From the NCBI GenBank assembly GCA_036925085.1, contig JAUPFP010000010.1, positions 3,324,474 through 3,388,473 of the forward strand: a stretch of DNA of 64,000 bases. Reading direction: 5' to 3'. Position numbers and translations under genes: made by a program. The first letter of the stretch is position 1; every line of letters begins with the position of its first letter. This document shows, piece after piece, positions 1-52,940 of this stretch. The notes beneath the pieces were generated by a model. That model was given only the letters and a program-made list of their open reading frames with translations, was not told the origin of the DNA and searched no databases. This stretch comes from Brachycybe producta (lineage: Eukaryota; Arthropoda; Diplopoda; Playtdesmida; Andrognathidae).

Positions 1-7807
<7,807 letters not shown>

Positions 7808-8639
7808 GGCACAACAACAACAACACCAATGATGATGATTTCAATTTTAAACCTCTTTCTTTGCGTAGAAAAATTCGAATTTCTTCCCTAAACGTAACAG
7901 AATGAAAGAAAAAATGGATCAAAATTATTTGCGATCGTTTTTACGTGTATGTTTTTTTTTTTGGTTGAAGTTCATGTTGTTTTTGTCCATGTGTTTTTTT
8001 CTAATCTTCAGATGAAATATTGCTGCTGTTTTGATTGGACTTCGAAATATTACGTCACACGTCAACAAAAACAACAACAACAACACTTCCGTGTTAATAT
8101 GTTTATAAATAGGCACAGAAAAATGCCAACTGATTGGTTAACAAGAACATAAAGGATTGATCATGCCGGTGTAAGAAAAAAAAATTGGGGGTATTCCTTC
8201 TTGTTGACATCGTCGTCGTGTGACGTCGTCTAATGAATCCAATCAACAGAAAAACGACCACGAAAACGTTTACATAAATGAAAACACAACAACAGGAACA
8301 ATTTCTCCCTTCCCCCCCCCCCCTTGTTATTCTAATTTGTGCGACCATTTCTGTCGGTTTCGACGTCACTCGATGACGCAATTGAGGAACAGCTGATTTA
8401 ATATATACATATACGGAACTCAATAAAAAGAAATCAATCGAAAGGATTGAATGAATGAATGAATAAAACAGACAGGTTGGTTTCGGAAGCAAAACAGAAC
8501 CAGAAAACGAGAGACGTAGGTGATTACGTCAATTGAAACGAGAGAGAGAGAGAAAGAGAAACAATAGAAATCTCTCGTTCACAACCTCACAACATATAAT
8601 GAATGATTAATTGTTTATTAGAGAGATGATGGAGAGAGC
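7808..8639. other. AKT 5' untranslated/upstream region
   Basis: Upstream of the AKT ATG on the minus strand. It contains CAA and GAT trinucleotide runs next to the ATG, AT-rich DNA and an (AATG)n stretch near 8448-8463. I see no convincing TATA box, splice acceptor for a non-coding exon, or second gene, although a promoter is expected here or further upstream. Confidence 0.4.
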
Positions 8640-8994
8640 GAGAAAAAGGGAAATAAAGAGAGAAAAAAAGGAAAAGAAAGAGAGAAAAAAAGGAAAAGAA
8701 AGAGAGAAAAAAAGGAAAAGAAAGAGAGAAAAAAAGGAAAAGAAAGAGAGAAAAAAAGGAAAAGAAAGAGAGAAAAAAAGGAAAAGAAAGAGAGAAAAAA
8801 AGGAAAAGAAAGAGAGAAAAAAAGGAAAAGAAAGAGAGAAAAAAAGGAAAAGAAAGAGAAAAAAAGGAAAAGAAAGAGAGAAAAAAAGGAAAAGAAAGAG
8901 AGAAAAAAAGGAAAAGAAAGAGAGAAAAAAAGGGAATGAAAGAGAGAAAAAAAGGGAATGAAAGAGAGAAAAAAAGGGAATGAAAGAGAGAAAA
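8640..8994. repeat. 22-bp homopurine satellite abutting the assembly gap
   Basis: Roughly 15 copies of a 22-bp unit (GAGAGAAAAAAAGGAAAAGA plus AA). From about 8656 to 8935 the plus strand is purines only; later units carry GGGAATG. Such tracts can form intramolecular triplex DNA, and the array runs straight into the gap, so its true length is unknown. Confidence 0.85.
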
Positions 8995-9094
8995 NNNNNN
9001 NNNNNNNNNNNNNNNNNNNNNNNNNNNNNNNNNNNNNNNNNNNNNNNNNNNNNNNNNNNNNNNNNNNNNNNNNNNNNNNNNNNNNNNNNNNNNN
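8995..9094. other. Assembly gap of 100 N
   Basis: One hundred N characters in a row, a conventional placeholder length. The array breaks at this point, so the gap is most likely collapsed homopurine satellite. Unique-looking DNA (CTTTTTCTGTTTG) resumes at 9095. Confidence 0.99.
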
Positions 9095-9278: not shown

Positions 9279-10740
9279 AACAAGGGATTCAAGGAACCCT
9301 ATAGACCTCCATTGCTTTAATATATGCTTTCATATATCAAATAACCAACTTTTTTTCATTGTTACATGTGTGCGCATGCATATGCACATTTACACACGTG
9401 TGCGCATGTGTACGCACAGGTACAAACGTGCGCGCATGTGTACGCACAGGTACAAACGTGCGCGCATGTGTACGCACAGGTACAAACGTGCGCGCATGTG
9501 TACGCACAGGTACAAACGTGCGCGCATGTGTACGCACAGGTACAAACGTGCGCACATGTGTACGCACAGGTACAAACGTGCGCACATGTGTACGCACAGG
9601 TACAAACGTGCGCACATGTGTATGCACAGGTACAAACGTGCGCACATGTGTATGCACAGGTACAAACGTGCGCGCATGTGTACGTGCAGGTACACACGTG
9701 CGCGCAAGTGTACGTGCAGGTACACACGTGCGCGCAAGTGTACGCGCACGTGCACACGTGCGCGCGTGTACGCGCACGTGCACACGTGCGCGCATGTGTA
9801 CGCACACGTGCACACGTGCGCGCATGTGTACGCACACGTGCACACTTGCGCGCATGTGTACGCACACGTGCACACTTGCGCGCATGTGTACGCACACGTG
9901 CACACTTGCGCGCATGTGTACGCACACGTGCACACTTGCGCGCATGTGTACGCACACGTGCACACTTGCGCGCATGTGTACGCACACGTGCACACTTGCG
10001 CGCATGTGTACGCACACGTGCACACTTGCGCGCATGTGTATGCACACGTGCACACTTGCGCGCATGTGTACGCACACGTGCACACTTGCGCGCATGTGTA
10101 CGCACACGTGCACACTTGCGCGCATGTGTACGCACACGTACACACTTGCGCGCATGTGTACGCACACGTACACACTTGCGCGCATGTGTACGCACACGTA
10201 CACACTTGCGCGCATGTGTACACACACGTACACACTTGCACGCATGTGTACGCACACGTACACACTTGTGCACATGTGTACGCACACGTACATACGTGTG
10301 CGCATGTGTACGCACATTTACACACGTGTGCGCATGTGTATATAGATAAACACACATGTATGTACTCATGTACATGACATAGTTACATGTGATGCGCATG
10401 CTTCATTTGTAATAATATGGGGTTTAAAATGTAAATACATCACATGTATTCTAATATACAAAAATAATAACAGAACATAAAAAAGAACACCCCTCCTAAA
10501 TAATAGAAAAGTCCCCCCCCCCTTTCGAATGCTACAACTGGAAAGAGGAAGAATCTCGATTTTTTGAAAAAAAAATTACGATTTTGAAAAATCGAAATTT
10601 CATATATCAAATCGCGTCAGAATGTGTACATCATTTTAGGTCTGATGACATTTTATTGTAGCGCAAGCCCCGTTTTTGAGTTGTTTGACCCACAAAAAAT
10701 TATGCCCAAAAACTCAAAATTTGTTTCTAAAAACTTCATA
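9279..10740 (+). repeat. Macro-element tandem copy 1 with long 30-bp minisatellite
   Basis: Begins AACAAGGGATTCAAGGAACC, then a flank (CTATAGACCTCCATTGC to CTTTTTTTCATTG), then about 33 units of a 30-bp minisatellite at 9360-10345. A 395-bp tail follows, including ACATGTGATGCGCATGC and CTACAACTGGAAAGAGGAAG. Units drift along the array: ...CACAGGTACAAACGTG early, CACGTGCACACTTGCGCG in the middle, CACATTTACACACGTG at both edges. All six frames stay open for over 320 codons, but this follows from the base pattern and is not evidence of a gene. Confidence 0.85.
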
Positions 10741-11474
10741 AAACAAGGGATTCAAGGAACCCTATAGACCTCCATTGCTTTAATATATGCTTTCATATAT
10801 CAAATAACCAACTTTTTTTCATTGTGCGCATGTGTACGCACATGTACACACTTGTGCGCATGTGTACGCACATGTACACACGTGTGCGCATGTGTACGCA
10901 CATGTACACATGTGTGCGCATGTGTACGCACATGTACACATGTGTGCGCATGTGTACGCACATGTACACACGTGTGTGCATGTGTACGCACATGTACACA
11001 CGTGTGCGCATGTGTACGCACATGTACACACGTGTGCGCATATGTATATAGATAATCACACATGTATGTACTCATGTACATGACATAGTTACATGTGATG
11101 CGCATGCGTCATTCATTTGTAATAATATGGGTTTAAAATGAAAATACATCACATGTATTCTAATATACAAAAATAATAACAGAACATAAAAAGGAACACC
11201 CCTCCTAAATAATAGAAAAGTCCCCCCTTTCGAATGCTACAACTGGAAAGAGGAAGAATCTCGATTTTTTGAAAAAAAAATTACGTTTTTAAAAAATCGA
11301 AATTTTATATATCGAATCGCTCTAAAATTCCAATTTTTTTCCAGTTTCATCGTCAGAATGTTTACATCACTTTAAGTCTGATGACATTTTATTGTAGGTG
11401 GCCCCGTTTTCGAGTTGTTCGACCCACTAAAAATTATGACCAAAAACTCAAAATTTGTTTCTAAAAACTTCATA
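10741..11474 (+). repeat. Macro-element tandem copy 2 (734 bp)
   Basis: Same order as the preceding copy: AACAAGGGATTC flank, a minisatellite of about 7 units (10824-11041), then the tail with ACATGTGATGCGCATGCGTC. Its minisatellite is purer than that of copy 1 and alternates purine and pyrimidine without a break. The tail has a segment (CTCTAAAATTCC...CAGTTTCATCG) absent from copy 1 but present in copy 3. Confidence 0.88.
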
Positions 11475-12238
11475 AAACAAGGGATTCAAGGAACCCTATA
11501 GACCTCCATTGCTTTAATATATGCTTTCATATATCAAATAACCAACTTTTTTTCATTGTGCGCATGTGTACGCACATGTACACACTTGTGCGCATGTGTA
11601 CGCACATGTACACACGTGTGCGCATGTGTACGCACATGTACACACGTGTGCGCATGTGTACGCACATGTACACACGTGTGCGCATGTGTACGCACATGTA
11701 CACACGTGTGCGCATGTGTACGCACATGTACACACGTGTGCGCATGTGTACGCACATGTACACACGTGTGCACATGTGTACGCACATGTACACACGTGTG
11801 CGCATATGTATATAGATAATCACACATGTATGTACTCATGTACATGACATAGTTACATGTGATGCGCATGCGTCATTCATTTGTAATAATATGGGTTTAA
11901 AATGAAAATACATCACATGTATTCTAATATACAAAAATAATAACAGAACATAAAAAGGAACACCCCTCCTAAATAATAGAAAAGTCCCCCCTTTCGAATG
12001 CTACAACTGGAAAGAGGAAGAATCTCGATTTTTTGAAAAAAAAATTACGTTTTTAAAAAATCGAAATTTTATATATCGAATCGCTCTAAAATTCCAATTT
12101 TTTTCCAGTTTCATCGTCAGAATGTTTACATCACTTTAAGTCTGATGACATTTTATTGTAGGTGGCCCCGTTTTCGAGTTGTTCGACCCACTAAAAATTA
12201 TGACCAAAAACTCAAAATTTGTTTCTAAAAAATTCATA
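11475..12238 (+). repeat. Macro-element tandem copy 3 (764 bp)
   Basis: Almost identical to 10741-11474 in flank and tail, but longer by 30 bp, exactly one minisatellite unit (about 8 units, 11558-11805). Near-identity shows a very recent tandem duplication or an assembly artefact. Confidence 0.88.
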
Positions 12239-12450
12239 AAAAAATAACCCCTGGGTAAAATTTTCTAATTTTTTGTCAGGAGCTTCATATTGACCCACGG
12301 AATCAAATAAAAAATACTGCATGTCTTTATCTCATTCCGTTCTTGAGTTGTTCGAGGAACTAAATCGGGTTCCGGACACACACACACACACACACACATC
12401 CTTTTTTGCCCCTTTTCTTGCATGATCCTATATACCGCCAAAAACCGCCG
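12239..12450 (+). repeat. Family D segment (macro-element distal part)
   Basis: Continues from the tail of copy 3: TAACCCCTGGGTAAAATTTT, CTGCATGTCTTTATCTCATT, an (AC)n run at about 12376-12398, then TTGCCCCTTTTCTTGCATGA and TCCTATATACC. The same series recurs at 22120-22290 and inverted at 22300-22520, showing the macro-element extends beyond the tandem unit. Confidence 0.75.
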
Positions 12451-12885: not shown

Positions 12886-12914
12886 AAAATAAACTGAAAG
12901 AATGCTGCTCCAAT

Positions 12915-13980
12915 ATGTTGACATAGTATCTCAATATTTTGAATTAGTATCAAATATAGAGATAGTAACTCAATATACTGAGATAGTATCTCAATATATG
13001 GACTTAGTATCTCAATATTTTGACTTGCTATCTCAATATTTTGACTTAGTATACCAATATTTTGACTTAGTATACCAATATTTTGACTTAGTATACCAAT
13101 ATTTTGACTTAGTATACCAATATTTTGACTTAGTATACCAATATTTTGACTTAGTATACCAATATTTTGACTTAGTATACCAATATTTTGACTTACTATA
13201 CCAATATTTTGACTTACTATACCAATATTTTGACTTAGTATACCAATATTTTGACTTAGTATACCAATATTTTGACTTAGTATACCAATATTTTGACTTA
13301 ATATACCAATATTTTGACTTACTATACCAATATTTTGACTTACTATACCAATATTTTGACTTAGTATACCAATATTTTGACTTAGTATACCAATATTTTG
13401 ACTTAGTATACCAATATTTTGACTTACTATACCAATATTTTGACTTAGTATACCAATATTTTGACTTAGTATACCAATATTTTGACTTAGTATACCAATA
13501 TTTTGACTTAGTATACCAATATTTTGACTTAGTATACCAATATTTTGACTTACTATACCAATATTTTGACTTACTATACCAATATTTTGACTTACTATAC
13601 CAATATTTTGACTTAGTATACCAATATTTTGACTTAGTATACCAATATTTTGACTTAGTATACCAATATTTTGACTTAATATACCAATATTTTGACTTAA
13701 TATACCAATATTTTGACTTAGTATACCAATATTTTGACTTAGTATACCAATATTTTGACTTAGTATACCAATATTTTGACTTAGTATACCAATATTTTGA
13801 CTTAGTATACCAATATTTTGACTTAGTATACCAATATTTTGACTTAGTATACCAATATTTTGACTTAGTATACCAATATTTTGACTTAGTATATCAATAT
13901 TTTGACTTAGTATATCAATATTTTGACTACGTATATCAATATTTTGACTTAGTATATCAATATTTTGACTTAATCAATAA
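12915..13980 (+). repeat. 21-bp satellite, about 50 units, reading as an open frame
   Basis: Tandem 21-bp unit (TTGACTTAGTATACCAATAT plus T), degenerate at both ends (TCTCAA variants left, TATATCAA right). The period is a multiple of three and lacks stops in one frame, so 12902-14041 reads as a 379-residue chain of LVYQYFD heptads. Nearly all variation is a single site (GTA/CTA/ATA) that changes the amino acid, and there are no silent changes elsewhere, so DNA-level homogenisation explains it better than a protein. I do not call a gene. Confidence 0.9.
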
Positions 13981-15064: not shown

Positions 15065-16417
15065 CCGTGAGTTAGCACCCTTTTTAAACATTTAATAACT
15101 CGGTCAAAAATCATCTGATTATTATGAAATTTGGCACAACTGTAGATGAGAATGCCTTTTAGAATTTAAATAAGTGTGCCTTTAATTTCTCACCACAGAG
15201 TTTTTTTGGTCTGCAGAGGGCGCTGTAGCACAGCGGTGCGATTACCAATTGGTTCGTCTGCTAGCTTGAAAATGCCGTTCACTGAAAAAGACAAAATTGC
15301 CACCAAATTTCTTCATGAAAACAAAAATTATGGTGCTAAACGAATTCTTAAAAAATTTCCAAACAAAGGATGGAGTTTACGCGGACTGAAGGCAGTGTTC
15401 TGCATCGGAAAGGCAGTGGGGGAAACCGGACTGTGCACATTGACGATAACATCAACGCCGTTAATGAGCTCATTTTGAGTCAAGAAGAACAACCGCAAAC
15501 ACATCGCTCCCAACGTGAAATTGCTCGTCCGACAGGTGTTTCGCAAAGTTCTGTGTCCAGAATAATCAAAAAGGAACTCAACTTAAAATGTTTCAAAAAA
15601 CATTGGGCAACGGAATTAACTGAAAGTATCAAAGTCTCTCGTCTTTCACGTTGCAAACAACTTTTGCATCGTTTCCCACAACACAAAGTGAGCTTCATAT
15701 TTTTCACAGATGAAAAAGTTTTCACTGTTGCTCGACCCACCAATAAGCAGAACGATTGTTTACGCACCAGCTACCGCTAGAAAGAATGACATACCCGCTG
15801 AACGATTGCTGCGAATGCAACCAAAGTTCAGCAAATCAGTAATGGTGTCGGTGGGAGTGTCATTGTTGGGTGCCACAGGAATTCATTTTGTTGAACCAGG
15901 AGTCAAAATTAATAGCAAATACTACCGCAACGAACTTCTGAAAAACTGTCTGCTTCCTGACATGAAGGAAATGTCAGAATTCTTCATTTTCCAGCAGTAT
16001 GGAGCACCTGCTCACACTGCCAAGGATAGAGTTGTGTTTCTCACCCAGGAAACACCCGAATTCATCGAACCGACTTTGTGGCCACCCAATAGTCCCGACC
16101 TCAACCCCGTGGACTATGGCATTTGGGGCGTCATGCAAGAAAAGGTTTACCGAAGCAAAATGAACAAAATGAAAAATCGGATAACGCAGGCTTGGAGTGA
16201 GCTAGACCAAAGCATCATAAACGCTGCAGTGCAAAAGTGGCGGATCCGACTAAACACGTGTGTTGCAGCTGGCGGTGGACATTTTGAACACAAATTGAAA
16301 TAGGCAAAATGTTAGTTAACATTTCATCTACAGTTGTGCCAAATTTCATAATAATCGGATGATTTTTGACCGAGTTAATAAATTTTTAAAAAGGGTGCCA
16401 TATTCACTGACTCACGG
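15065..16417 (+). mobile_element. Mariner-like transposon with long terminal inverted repeats
   Basis: Inverted repeats of about 85 bp begin CCGTGAGTTAGCACCCTTTT and end ACTCACGG; shared inner stretches are AACTCGGTCAAAAATCAT and ATTATGAAATTTGGCACAAC. Length is 1353 bp and it encloses the transposase relic at 15271-16303. It is nested in a family A MITE and is therefore younger than that MITE. Confidence 0.88.
15271..16303 (+). pseudogene. Mariner-like transposase, two frameshifts
   Basis: Starts MPFTEKDKIATKF with an N-terminal helix-turn-helix region, then a second HTH (SQREIARPTGVSQSSVSRII), then the DDE catalytic domain. A frameshift lies near 15395-15410 (after GLKAV) and another near 15725 (in FFTDEKVF). 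The first catalytic D is kept (FTDEK) and the third is kept (WPPNSPDLNPVDYGIW). The second motif reads FQQYGAPAHTA with Y where D is expected. The frame then runs to the stop at 16303. It cannot make an active enzyme as written; two frameshifts and a lost catalytic residue point to decay, not a sequencing error. Confidence 0.88.
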
Positions 16418-18946: not shown

Positions 18947-19693
18947 AGAGACACAAAATTACTTCGAAAAATCTCTGCAAAGAGCACTAGCATCGTTTAT
19001 CTATTGAGCCCATAGACCCAATGTTAAAAAAAAAATGTTAATTTTTAAAATACACAGTAGCGGCAATATGTTTATTTCTCATATTTAAAGTTGTCCAATA
19101 TTAAGTTTTCAAAGTGCAATGTGCACCTTAAATATATGCTGATCGAATGATAGAATGACAAAAAATTGGTAAGTGCGGTTCTATTTTTAAAAACTATTTC
19201 AAAATTGCGAATTTCTAACTTTAATGTTAAATAAACTCCATAAGAAAAAAACTTCCATTAAAATGTTCGTAAAAATACCTAAAAATAATTTTTAAAAATA
19301 CCACAATTAAACCACAGTGAAGCCAACACATTGGCGCACGTGCTGATTTTTTTCTGCTTTTTTAAAATTACTTTTAGGTATTTTTACGAACATTTTAATG
19401 GATGTTTCTTTCTTATGGAGTTTATTTAACATTAAAGTTAGAAATTCGCGATTTTGAAATAGTTTTTAAAAATAGAACCGCACTTACCAATTTTTTGTCA
19501 TTCTATCATTCGATCAGCATATATTTAAGATGCACATTGCACTTTGAAAACTTAATAACGGACAACTTTAAATAGGAAAAATAAACATATTGCCTCGACT
19601 ATGTGTATTTTAAAAATTAACATTTTTTCTTTAACATCGGGTCTACGGGCTCAATAGAAAAACGATGCTAGCGCTATTTTGCCGTGTAGCCTC
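18947..19693. mobile_element. Family F foldback element, copy 1, TTAA target duplication
   Basis: 747-bp palindrome flanked on both sides by TTAA (18943-18946, 19694-19697). Left end GAGACACAAAATTACTTCG, right end ATTTTGCCGTGTAGCCTC. Arms share GTTGTCCAATATTAAG, GTGCAATGTGCACCTTAAAT and GTAAGTGCGGTTCTATTTTT. The centre is near 19320. TTAA targeting is characteristic of piggyBac-type elements; there is no transposase. Confidence 0.85.
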
Positions 19694-20992: not shown

Positions 20993-21200
20993 CTGCGCAT
21001 GTGTACGCACATGTACACACGTGCGCACATGTGTACGCACATGCACGCACGTGTGCACATGTGTACGCACATGCACGCACGTGTATGCACGTGTGCACCT
21101 GTGTATGCACGTGTGCACATGTGTACGCACATGCACGCACGTGTATGCACGTGTGCACATGTGTACGCACATGTACACACGTGTGCGCATGTGTATGTAC
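20993..21200. repeat. Alternating purine-pyrimidine minisatellite, left arm
   Basis: Irregular units of GCGCATGTGTACGCACATGT, CACGCACGTGTGCACATGTG and CACGTGTATGCACGTGTGCA. Purine and pyrimidine alternate almost without exception over about 200 bases, as in the arrays at 10824 and 11558. Confidence 0.82.
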
Positions 21201-21330
21201 ATATATGTATGTGTTCATACGTATGTATTCACGTACATGACAGTTACATGTGAGGCACATGCGTTATTCATTTGTAATAATATGGTTTAAAATGAGAATA
21301 CGTCACATGTATTTTAATATACAAAAACTA

Positions 21331-21865
21331 GTGGGGTAACCCATCACATGACGGGAGCAAAATTCACAGGCAATTGTGCCCAGCATTAGAATTTCTTTTC
21401 CTCCGCCCTTTTATGACGTCAGACCAAGTAACAAACCAATTAGAAAAGAATAAAGGTGCTGAGCAAAAGAAATTCTAATGCTGGGCACAATTGCCTGTGA
21501 TAAACTGTAGTTTAATTTTGCTACTCTTATCCCCTCCCCTTTTTATATTTGAAAGAAAAAGGAGTTTTTCATTTTCTCTGGTGTGCGCATGCGCGTCGTT
21601 TGTTTCTTTTTTACTCCTTTCATTTCAATTTCAGCCACCCCCTCAAACTTTTTTCAACCCTCCACGTTTCTCTCTCTCCCCTTCTACACTTTCCAACCTT
21701 TTCCCCTCTCCAATTAAATATCATGGGGTTGTTGGATAAAAAGGGTGCACCTTGAGAAAAAAAAGCTGTTCATTTCTTCATTTATTTAAATTTATATAAA
21801 TTCCGACGTGCTTCAAGGGTTTTGTACAGTGTTACTCCACACACGCAAACACACATACACAGACA
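21331..21865 (+). mobile_element. Dispersed repeat family C, copy 2
   Basis: Begins ACTAGTGGGGTAACCCATCA, carries a family B MITE (21366-21498), then a pyrimidine-rich stretch (TTTCTCTCTCTCCCCTTCTA), AATTTATATAAATTCCGACG and GGTTTTGTACAGTG. It is inserted in the left arm of the macro-element palindrome. Confidence 0.65.
21366..21498. mobile_element. Palindromic MITE family B, copy 2
   Basis: Ends ACAGGCAATTGTGCCCAGCA and GCTGGGCACAATTGCCTGT; the interior has CCGCCCTTTTATGACGTCAG. The first ten bases are the same as family A, suggesting a common transposase. One arm is shortened relative to copy 1. Confidence 0.72.
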
Positions 21866-22875
21866 TGGGATATTATATATATAATATATAAAAAATTATA
21901 ACATAACATAGGAAAAACACCCCTACTAAATAATATAAAAGTCCACCTTTCATATACTACAACTGGAAAGAGGAAGAATCTCAATTTTTTAAAAAAAAAT
22001 TACAATTTTGAAAAATCGAAATTTCATATATCACTCTAGGTGGCCCCGTTTTCGAGATGTTCGACCCACAAAAAATTATGACCAAAAACTCAAATTTTGT
22101 TTCTAACAAAATCATAAAAAAACAACCCCGGGGTAACATTTTCTAATTGTTTGCCAGGAACATCATATTGACCCACTGAATCAAATAAAAAATACTGCAT
22201 GTCTTTATCTCATTCCGTTCTTGAGTTGTTCGACACACAAACTCGGGGTTCCGGACATACGGACATACAGACATCCTTTTTTGACCTCCAATGCTCTTTA
22301 GAGCAATGGAAGTATATAGGATCATGCAAGAAAACGGGCAAAAAAGGATGTCTGTATGTCTGTGTGTCTGTGTCCAGAACCCCGATTTTATGGGTCGAAC
22401 TCAAGAACAGAATGAGGATAAAGACATGCAGTATTTTTTATTTGATTCAGTGGTTCAATTTCATGCTCCTGACAAACAATCAGAAAATTTTACCCAAGGG
22501 TTATTTTTTTATGAATTTTTTAGAAACAAATTTTGAGCTTTTGGTCATAATTGTTTGTGGGTCGAACAACTCGAAACCGGTGCCACCTACAACAAAATGT
22601 CATCAGATCTAAAATGATGTACACATGCTGACGATGAAACCGGAACAAAATTTAAATTTTTAGCGCGATTTGATATATAAAATTTCGATTTTTTAAAAAC
22701 GTAATTTTTAAAAAAAATCGAGATTCTTCCTCTTTCCAGTTGTAGCATTCGAAAGGGGGACTATTCCTATTATTTAGGAGGGGTGTTCTTTCTATGTTAT
22801 GTTATTATTTTTGTATATTAGAATACATGTGACGTATTTTCATTTTAAACCATATTATTAACTAGCAGTTAGTTT

Positions 22876-23089
22876 GTTTGCCCATTAGAATTAGCACAGC
22901 GCATGCGCATTACCATCTTGTCGTTTTATATAGGTAAGTGATTGCAGATTTGCGTTAGCAGCGCCATCTATTGATCACCAATGAAAACTGCCAATGAGAC
23001 GTTCACTATAGGTTAGGTTAGGTTAGTTTTCCTATATAAAACGATAAGATGGTAATGCGCATGCGCTCTGCTAATTCTAATGGGCAAAC
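22876..23089. mobile_element. Palindromic MITE family E
   Basis: 214 bp. Left end GTTTGCCCATTAGAATTAGC, right end GCTAATTCTAATGGGCAAAC; the arms share GCGCATGCGCATTACCATCT. The centre holds GGTTAGGTTAGGTTAG at about 23010-23026, three TTAGG-like units. It is inserted in the right arm of the macro-element palindrome. Confidence 0.78.
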
Positions 23090-23159
23090 GCTAGTATATT
23101 ATTATAAATGAATGACACATACGCATCACATGTAACTATGTCATGTACGTGAGTACATA

Positions 23160-23425
23160 CACGTGTGTTTATCTATATACACATGCACGCACTTGTGTAC
23201 ATGGGCGTACACATACGCGCACGTGTGTACATGGGCGTACACATACGCGCACGTGTGTACATGTGCGTACACATGCGCGCACGTGTGTACATGTGCGTAC
23301 ACATGCGCGCACGTGTGTACATGTGCGTACACATGCGCGCACGTGTGTACATGTGCGTACACATACGCGCACGTGTGTACATGTGCGTACACATACGCGC
23401 ACGTGTGTACATGTGCGTACACATG
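23160..23425. repeat. 30-bp alternating purine-pyrimidine minisatellite, right arm
   Basis: About 8 units of 30 bp with GTACATGTGCGTACACATGC and GCGCACGTGT; the first units have ATGGGCGTAC. Alternation is nearly complete, and it is in inverted orientation relative to 10824-11041. Confidence 0.85.
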
Positions 23426-23557
23426 TAATATTGAAAGAAAGTTGGTTATTTGATATATGAAAGCATATATTAAAGCAATGGAGGTCTATAAGGGTTCCTT
23501 GAATCCCTTGTTGCCCCTTTTCTTGCATTATCCTATATACATAAAAAAAAACATTAA

Positions 23558-48721: not shown

Positions 48722-49365
48722 ACTGAATAAGCGCCAAATTGAACAAACGCCAAACTGAATAAGCGCCAAATGGAAGAAACGCCAAACTGAATAAAAGCCA
48801 AAAATTTGGCGGTTATTCAGTTTGGCGTTTGTTCCATTTGGCGCTTATTCAGTTTGGCGTTTGTTCCATTTGGCGCTTATTCAGTTTGGCGTTTGTTCCA
48901 TTTGGCGTTTATTCAGTTTGGCGGTTATTCAGGTTTTTTGTAAATTCTGATGGTCCAAAAGCTTTTATAGACGTCAGACTGTGCAGATTTACACCTAACC
49001 TAACCTAACCTAACCAAACCAAACCTAACCAAACCAAACCAAACCAAACCAAACCAAACCAAACCAAACCAAACCAAACCAAACCAAACCAAACCAAACC
49101 AAACCAAACCAAACCAAACCGAACCAAACCAAACCAAACCTAACCTAACCTCACATTTTGGCGGTTATTCAGTTTGGCACTTGTTCAGTTTGGCGTTAGT
49201 TCCATTTAGCGCTTATTCAGTTTGGCGTTTGTTCCATTTGGCTTTTATTTAGTTTGGCGTTTGTTCCATTTGGCGTTTATTCAGTTTGGCGTTAGTTCAG
49301 ATTGGCGTTTGTTCAATTTGGCGCTTATTCATTTTGGCGCTTGTTCAATTTGGCGCTTGATCAGC
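48722..49365. repeat. Inverted and tandem TTTGGCG repeat with telomere-like core (family K)
   Basis: Built of TTTGGCGTTTGTTCCATT and TTTGGCGCTTATTCAG blocks, first inverted (48723-48815: AATAAGCGCCAAA) then direct to 49365. At 48991-49151 lies a pentamer tract of ACCTA at both edges and ACCAA in the middle, about 32 units, resembling interstitial arthropod telomere repeat. The open frame 49222-49479 is repeat sequence. Confidence 0.85.
48991..49151. repeat. ACCTA/ACCAA pentamer tract
   Basis: Roughly 32 consecutive pentamers. ACCTA (TAGGT on the other strand, same as TTAGG register) at the ends, ACCAA through the middle, one ACCGA. A derived telomere-like tract is one reading; a simple repeat grown from GGTT words is another. 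Confidence 0.85.
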
Positions 49366-51399: not shown

Positions 51400-52940
51400 C
51401 TGCTTAAAACGGGACTGGCTCACTACAGCTAACTGGGTCACTACAGCTACCAGACTCACTACAGCTACCAAAAAAAATATATAGACCTTTTTTTCATCAA
51501 AAGGGTCACTACAGCTACCAAGGGTCACTACAGCTACCAAAAAATATAGGCCTTTTTATTTATCAATACGTTTAGTTTAGATTACATTCGGTTCAATTAG
51601 GTTTCATTATGTTCGATTAGGTTTCCTTATGTTCGGTAAGGTTCGGTTTGGTTTGGTTTGGATCGGTTAGGTTCGGTTAGGTTTGGTTAGGATCGGTTAG
51701 GTTCTGTTAGTATCGGTACTTTTTGGTTAGGATTGTTAAGGTCCGGTTAGGTAAGGCTCGGTTAGGTAAGGTTTCATTAGGTAAGGTTCGGTTAGGTTAG
51801 GGAGAAAGGGTTATTTTTTTAGCTGTAGTGACGAAAAAGTGATAAAAAAGGTCTACATTTTGTCCCCCTATTTTTTGGTAGCTGTAGTGACGGTTGGGGG
51901 TCACTACAGCTACCAAGGCTCACAAGCGCTACTAGGGGGAGAACAGCTACTTGGGTCAATACAGCTACCAAAAAAATTAATAGACCTTTTTGTTCATCAA
52001 AAGGGTCACTACAGCTACCAAAAAATAGGGGGACAAAATATAACCTTTTTTTATCACTTTCTCGTCACTACAGCTAAAAAAATAACCCTTTCTACCTAAC
52101 CTAAATTAACCTTACCTAATAAAACCTTACCGAACCTTACCTAACCGAACCTTAACAATCCTAACCAAAAAGTACCGATACTAACCGAACCTAACCGATC
52201 CTAACCAAACCTAACCGAACATAACCAATCCTAACCGAACCTAACCGAACCTTACCGATCCTAACCGAACCTTACCGAACATAATGAAACCTAATCGAAC
52301 ATAATGAAGCCTAACTGAACCGAATGTAATCTAAACTAAACGTTTTGATAAATAAAAAGGCCTATATTTTTTGGTAGCTGTAGTGACCCTTTTGATGAAA
52401 AAAAGGTCTATATATTTTTTTTGGTAGCTGTAGTGACCCTGGTAGCTGTAGTGAGCCTAGTAGCTGTAGTGACCCAGTTAGCTGTAGTGAGCCAGTCCCG
52501 TAGTGACCGTTTTGATGAACAAAAGGTCTATATATTTTTTTGGTAGCTGTAGTGACCCAAGTAGCGGTTCTCTCCCTAGTAGCGCTTGTGAGCCTTGTCC
52601 TAACCAAACCTAACCGAACCTTAGCAAACATAATGAAACCTAACTGAACCGAATGTAATCTAAACTAAACGTATTGATAAATAAAAAGGCCTATATTTTT
52701 TGGTAGCTGTAGTGACCCTTGGTAGCTGTAGTGACCCTTTTGATGAAAAAAGGTCTATATATTTTTTTTTGGTAGCTGTAGTGACCCTGGTAGCTGTAGT
52801 GAGCCTAGTAGCTGTAGTGACCCAGTTAGTTGTAGTGAGCTAGTCCCATATTTTTTTGGTAGCTGTAGTGACCCAAGTAGCTGTTCTCCCCCTGGTAGCG
52901 CTTGCGAGCCTTGGTAGCTGTAGTGACCCCCAACCTTCCC
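51400..52940. repeat. Nested inverted-repeat block on GGTAGCTGTAGTGAC (family L)
   Basis: About two dozen copies of GGTAGCTGTAGTGACCC or its complement, joined by shared spacers (TTTTTGATGAAAAAAGGTCT, ATTTTTTGGTAGC). Between them are tracts of GGTTAGG/GGTTCGG words (51580-51800) and their complement (52080-52330, again 52600-52680). Symmetry centres are near 51890 and around 52500. No coding region; the open frames are repeat sequence. Confidence 0.85.

Follow-up and report, generated by a model that had tools for sequence, protein, structure and literature searches.

Alternating purine–pyrimidine arrays at the centre of a dispersed DINE-1-like element family in Brachycybe producta

Introduction

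Non-autonomous Helentrons, known as HINEs or DINE-1 elements, are non-coding elements that insert into T-rich sites. According to PMC4067079, they possess a terminal string of T and subterminal inverted repeats, the 5′ one being accompanied by an adjacent inverse copy, as well as a microsatellite, a 3′ palindrome and, optionally, tandem repeats. These features of insertion, termini, repeats, palindrome and absence of coding are common to the element considered here; however, unlike the elements described there, it has a central repeat that alternates purines and pyrimidines, and no named family was found to match its own. The Cg_HINE elements of the Pacific oyster, as presented in PMC7492417, are similar in that dispersed satellite-like arrays form the central repeats between two HINE modules, and in their T-rich sites and absence of target duplication. 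Their sequences differ from those of the present element, however, and the main text of that paper contains neither the word purine nor any occurrence of Z-DNA (0). Among the literature surveyed, mainly titles and the openings of abstracts, no work joining the central repeats of Helentrons with alternation or Z-DNA was found.

(CA)n microsatellites are strictly alternating and change their length in even steps. The arrays described here resemble them in both respects and have a similar modelled Z potential, but they consist of a 30-bp unit with 10-bp sub-repeats and are carried by a single element family.

The arrays were described in an earlier note on the window, which is the whole 64,000-nucleotide stretch analysed (contig JAUPFP010000010.1, positions 3,324,474 to 3,388,473). 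That note missed their transposable-element setting: every array forms the centre of a copy from a single dispersed transposable element family. The element is best explained as an addition to the known HINE/DINE-1 class with an unusual, self-locking central repeat.

Structure and Copy Number of the Element

The sequence AACAAGGGATTCAAGGAACCCTATAGACCTCC precedes each of the three arrays at 9363–11814. With up to three mismatches, this left end occurs at 829 sites in the 295-Mb genome, whereas the reversed control gives 0. The sequence upstream of it differs among 51 left ends (40 regions and the window, with sites within about 2.3 kb merged as one region), with the exception of a few shared duplicated or repeated flanks, which indicates a sharp element end. 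On the far side of the array lies a conserved module of approximately 635 bp, followed by ACCTCCATTGCTCTTTAGAGCAATGGAGGTC and an A-run, past which the flanks differ again; the right end, which has a hairpin, is also sharp. A search with the hairpin pattern gave 445 forward and 450 reverse matches. As this pattern is only two bases away from being its own reverse complement, these are largely the same sites, about 450 in number. Viral contigs, searched for exact copies of a 32-base segment of the left end, gave 0 matches.

Central arrays with both modules recognised were found in 40 of the 51 copies, and their length varies from 70 to 1890 bp; the 11 left ends without a tail anchor were left out of the array statistics, as were L001–L008. 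The regions L009–L048 correspond to the left-end sites listed for contig C1 and, as far as 6.04 Mb, for contig C2; they are not a random sample. A classical satellite was rejected, as the 40 arrays are dispersed, of the above lengths and located between two element modules, with the reservation that assembly gaps could hide long arrays. In the L017 region, two copies (from 1501 and from 3733) share the same 60 bp of upstream sequence, and their arrays measure 1128 and 1102 bp; this pair is a tandem segmental duplication that could serve to date changes in the arrays.

When read on the Helentron strand, the element starts with TTTTGACCTCCATTGCTCTAAAGAGCAATGGAGGT, which comprises the subterminal repeat and its inverse, and continues with a (TG)n tract and the central array. 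After the array, GCAATGGAGGTC is located 25 nt from the end, GGGTTCCTTGAATCCC lies near the end, and the terminus is TTGTT. On the element as a whole, GACCTCCATTGC begins at position 5 of one end and its inverse lies 25 nt from the other, and there is a 13-bp hairpin with its own inverse. Subterminal inverted repeats are therefore present at both ends, with an inverse copy by the 5′ one. The short palindrome GGGTTCCTTGAATCCC near the 3′ end is predicted to form a weak hairpin (−2.6 kcal/mol). A (CA)n-type dinucleotide tract of at least 8 bp was found in 25 of 27 tails, so that the 5′ module has a microsatellite in addition to the central tandem repeats of the element.

Next to the AACAAGGG end, 43 of 51 copies have A as the first host base (background 0.32), which is T on the Helentron strand, and at the opposite end an A-run is present in 31 of 31 hairpin ends. 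One and the same tract of other copies has received four insertions. Insertion is thus into T-rich (TT) sites, and no target duplication was seen, with one or two bases ambiguous due to the A-tracts. Taken together, these ends fit a high-copy, non-coding DINE-1-like element (HINE), a putative non-autonomous Helentron. A canonical Helitron (5′ TC, 3′ CTRR, insertion between A and T) was rejected, since the ends are TTTTGACC and CCCTTGTT and the sites are A/A (T/T). The genome contains 19 Helitron_like_N matches; an autonomous Helentron partner with the ends of the element was not found at 10 Helitron_like_N loci, including 1.5 kb on either side.

Copies of the Element in the Window

The strand of the window copies was assigned by the Helentron convention. 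Three copies stand head to tail at 9279–12440, all on the minus strand. Copy A (9279–10741), with its AACAAGGG end on the left, consists of the left end, the array and the module; the array (9363–10344, about 32.6 units of 30 bp) is of an older type with at least one transversion fixed in the unit, and the module is cut at position 439 of 635. Copy B (10742–11475) has an array at 10823–11050 with the strict modal unit beyond its first unit, and its module is cut at the identical A-tract. Copy C (11476–12440; array at 11557–11814) has the longest module of the trio, which contains an (AC)n tract at 12376–12397 and ends inside the terminal hairpin. According to PMC7492417, inner copies of Helitrons in tandem are often truncated at the 3′ end. 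The likeness is partial, since here the cut module is the 5′ one by Helentron orientation. The truncation may be explained equally well by unequal exchange or by insertion at the A-tract.

Copy D (5136–6197, plus strand) is oriented in the opposite direction, with its array at about 5136–5580 and its AACAAGGG end at 6166–6197; its other module was looked for and not found. It is split by a nested 540-bp insertion at about 5614–6153, which has inverted ends (CAGGGTT...AACCCTG) and TA on both sides and looks Tc1/mariner-like; the same site is uninterrupted in other copies of the element. Copy E (20994–22310, minus strand, right end approximate) has an array at 20994–21214 and a module interrupted by other repeats, and no AACAAGGG end was found in it. 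It shares a hairpin, tail to tail, with copy F (22290–23512, plus strand, left limit approximate), whose array lies at 23178–23427 and whose AACAAGGG end (23480–23512) falls within an A/T tract that belongs to another copy.

Alternation and Open Reading Frames

The six window arrays of approximately 30-bp units alternate purines and pyrimidines at 92–99% of steps, as the earlier note had described, whereas the window-wide share of alternating steps is 0.476. The counts are 409 of 445 steps at 5135–5580, 905 of 985 at 9360–10345 (the highest of 500 mononucleotide shuffles reached 545), 215 of 217 at 10824–11041, 245 of 247 at 11558–11805, 204 of 207 at 20993–21200 and 255 of 265 at 23160–23425. 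The three longest runs without a break measure 228, 198 and 193 bp. The arrays at 10824–11041 and 11558–11805, considered strict in the note, each have one out-of-phase base in the first unit (CTTG, giving two breaks); beyond it, alternation is strict over 198 and 228 bp, respectively.

Each of the stop codons TAA, TAG and TGA contains two adjacent purines, and the argument that strict alternation excludes them is correct. At 9360–10345, where all six frames had been reported open for more than 320 codons, six ORFs, one per frame, indeed span the array from stop to stop with lengths of 326–397 codons. There are zero stop triplets within 9390–10318 on both strands, and the whole array contains 4, while the shuffles have 72 on average (minimum 51). 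However, alternation accounts for this only in part: the array is not strictly alternating (80 breaks), and its frames are open partly because the breaks (CTT, AGG, AAA) form no stops. At 5135–5580, breaks do create stops, and the plus frames are closed by them; the counts are 8, 2 and 5 for the plus frames, with 0, 0 and 1 for the minus frames.

A repeat protein encoded by one frame of the arrays would agree with the unit length of 30, a multiple of three, and with the openness of the 9360–10345 array. This openness is, however, a consequence of alternation and concerns all six frames. Deviations from the modal unit are distributed as 37/48/52 over unit positions modulo three (22 arrays, one of them, L066, mis-oriented), which is little bias; array shifts of 2, 8, 10, 20 and 28 bp alter the reading frame, and array length in the dispersed copies varies over the wide range given above. 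The coding reading, rejected on the open frames, the low bias and the frame-changing shifts, is extremely improbable, and the warning against calling proteins here was right.

The Repeat Unit and the Source of Alternation

In 319,047 bases, comprising the window and 50 loci chosen for the element or Rep genes rather than at random, 69 long alternating segments were detected; of these, 68 match the 30-bp unit, and the remaining segment is (TA)n. The unit has 10-bp sub-repeats and contains 3 CG and 2 TA steps. The modal unit TGTGCGCATGTGTACGCACATGTACACACG is identical in 18 of the 40 arrays, so the strictness of many copies is largely a matter of common descent. Among the 22 modal units that are not strict, 15 end in T, and this fixed transversion interrupts alternation twice in every unit. 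Over the 40 arrays, 924 of 18,404 steps are breaks, and the number of breaks per step increases with the divergence of the tails (Spearman rho 0.67 for the 27 tails aligned with one long match), a correlation confounded with subfamily. The ancestral alternating unit was perhaps a decayed (CA)n tract.

Substitutions in Arrays and Flanks

Adjacent units of the arrays differ by 641 transitions and 214 transversions, and the tails by 164 transitions and 240 transversions. The transition/transversion ratio predicted from the tail rates and the array composition is 0.91 (0.68–1.21), or 1.19 (0.81–1.81) with simple tracts masked, and the transition excess in the arrays is real. Nine other minisatellites in the window, taken as controls, together gave 60 transitions and 83 transversions, with wide variation between single arrays. 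The decay of CpG was rejected as the source of transitions, as the observed/expected CpG ratio of the window is 1.00. The CpG sites of the tails show 13 transitions and 6 transversions, and other C/G sites 44 and 40.

The set of young copies comprises arrays selected by the strict modal unit (14) or by close tails (7), with L022 and L066, which have the T variant, outside it; since it was partly chosen for the strict unit, it is biased toward few array transversions. L066, which in its correct orientation is a young array with the T-variant unit, was left out of the young-array, register-shift and private-transversion comparisons. The 21 young arrays contain 101 transitions and 12 transversions at 5160 interior sites, and 4782 masked tail sites from 14 of the young copies contain 18 and 20. 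Transitions in the arrays thus reach 5.2 times the tail rate (3.1–9.1) and transversions 0.56 times (CI 0.25–1.19, p = 0.11). The inherited T variant makes up 7 of the 12 array transversions. With this site left out, 5 private transversions in the arrays compare with 12 in the tails (ratio 0.39, 0.11–1.18, p = 0.09); dropping the site from the arrays only and comparing with all tail transversions gives 0.23 (p = 0.002), which is an unequal comparison. Odd phase shifts number 4 in 18,444 array bases, whereas 5 distinct odd indels occur in 9503 tail bases (0.22 vs. 0.53 per kb, p = 0.18). The array effect is mostly a gain of transitions, and a transversion deficit is possible but unproven. The check that the earlier note had proposed, whether copies prefer alternation, therefore gives a clear transition excess, while the deficits of transversions and odd indels are not significant like-for-like.

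One explanation of the gain is a mutational effect, in which damage to alternating or Z-prone DNA, or its repair, would produce extra transitions with no exchange among the units. The isolated variants speak for it, as they keep a transition excess of 164 to 95 against the predicted ratios given above. However, many transitions fall in displaced blocks, the CpG ratio of the window shows no depletion, and the ratio among isolated variants drops to 0.96–1.67, depending on the settings, once those that have an out-of-register template are removed. This is near or somewhat above the predicted 0.91, with an unexplained residue. We consider the mutational effect quite unlikely as the main cause.

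Register Shifts and the Parity Lock

In 47 arrays, 80 even and 4 odd register shifts were found, with 21 of the even ones coming from the two mutually duplicate copies of L017. Blocks displaced by 8, 10 or 20 bp occur in L010, L037 and L046, and each carries several transitions at once. The restriction to even shifts can be explained by the alternation itself: at an odd offset, every purine faces a pyrimidine and there are zero matches; at an even offset, purine faces purine and pyrimidine faces pyrimidine, so that residual differences read as transitions.

The reading that we prefer, with a probability of about 0.7, is that the alternation of the arrays in this DINE-1-like element comes from one ancestral unit and has been kept mainly by this parity lock. 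As its family suggests, the element would spread by a rolling-circle mechanism of transposition that relies on enzymes provided in trans, and the alternation would descend from a single ancestral alternating unit, consistent with the one unit family observed. Unequal exchange, conversion or slippage between units would then be possible only at even offsets, and such exchange would preserve the phase and leave differences of the transition type. Open frames and the Z-forming composition would be by-products. Several points weigh against this reading: the low transversion counts of the young arrays, the residual transition excess among isolated variants, the confounding of breaks and age by subfamily, and the failure to find an autonomous partner at the loci covered.

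Z-DNA Potential and Selection for Alternation

The pattern had also been described as classically Z-DNA-forming, which holds as to composition only. In a simple B–Z model, the arrays need a −sigma of 0.040–0.045, where (CA)n needs 0.048, (CG)n 0.037 and a shuffled array 0.056; by this estimate, the arrays are plausible Z-formers about on par with CA repeats.

Alternation might have been selected, if a flip to Z-DNA, a supercoil sink or a self-pairing strand aided transposition or set chromatin, and copies with a broken phase spread less. The strictest arrays belong to the youngest lineage, their transversions run at 0.39–0.56 of the flank rate and lower in the harshest comparison, odd shifts are rarer than in the tails, and the same simple model predicts a flip near −sigma 0.044. 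However, neither deficit is significant like-for-like, the array excess consists mostly of gained transitions, and older arrays with the unit-fixed transversion (the last-base T of 15 of 22 non-strict modal units) are still numerous. Special single-strand folding was rejected, as the array has no advantage over its dinucleotide shuffles, of which 49 of 200 equal it (z −0.75). Selection for alternation is unlikely, and passive upkeep by the parity lock is the better reading. It is quite doubtful, too, that strict alternation has favoured the youngest lineage, in which case hundreds of mobile Z-forming or supercoil-absorbing switches would aid transposition under a two- to four-fold constraint against phase breaks.

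The parity lock suggests a rule that a strictly alternating array locks itself, with homologous exchange at even offsets only, from which long open frames and a transition excess follow without selection. An apparent coding or Z-DNA puzzle is traced to a known class of mobile elements, and hundreds of copies of such an element can mislead Z-DNA surveys as well as gene finders. Arrays of different age, old and young, provide a natural series for testing whether Z-prone DNA is ever selected.

Other Features of the Window

Several other repeats were observed. Before the trio, a 22-bp purine-rich array (8635–9094) runs into a run of 100 N bases, probably an assembly gap. Just past the trio, a 21-bp minisatellite of 50.8 copies (12910–13972) has long open frames and is not alternating. 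An ORF at 15692–16303 has a weak match to DDE_3 (22.5 bits against a cut-off of 28.6) and is likely a transposase remnant. A 257-bp inverted repeat is located at 19042–19614, with arms that are 93% complementary and 59 bp apart. At 48722–49364, 16-bp minisatellites in opposite orientations (ACTGAATAAACGCCAA and TTTGGCGTTTATTCAG) surround a 5-bp ACCAA array. The region 51414–52929 contains arrays of a TTAGG-like motif, which we take to be the arthropod-type telomere motif, in opposite orientations (51607–51801 and 52094–52321); they are flanked by inverted GTAGCTGTAGTGACCC repeats in a foldback-like arrangement.
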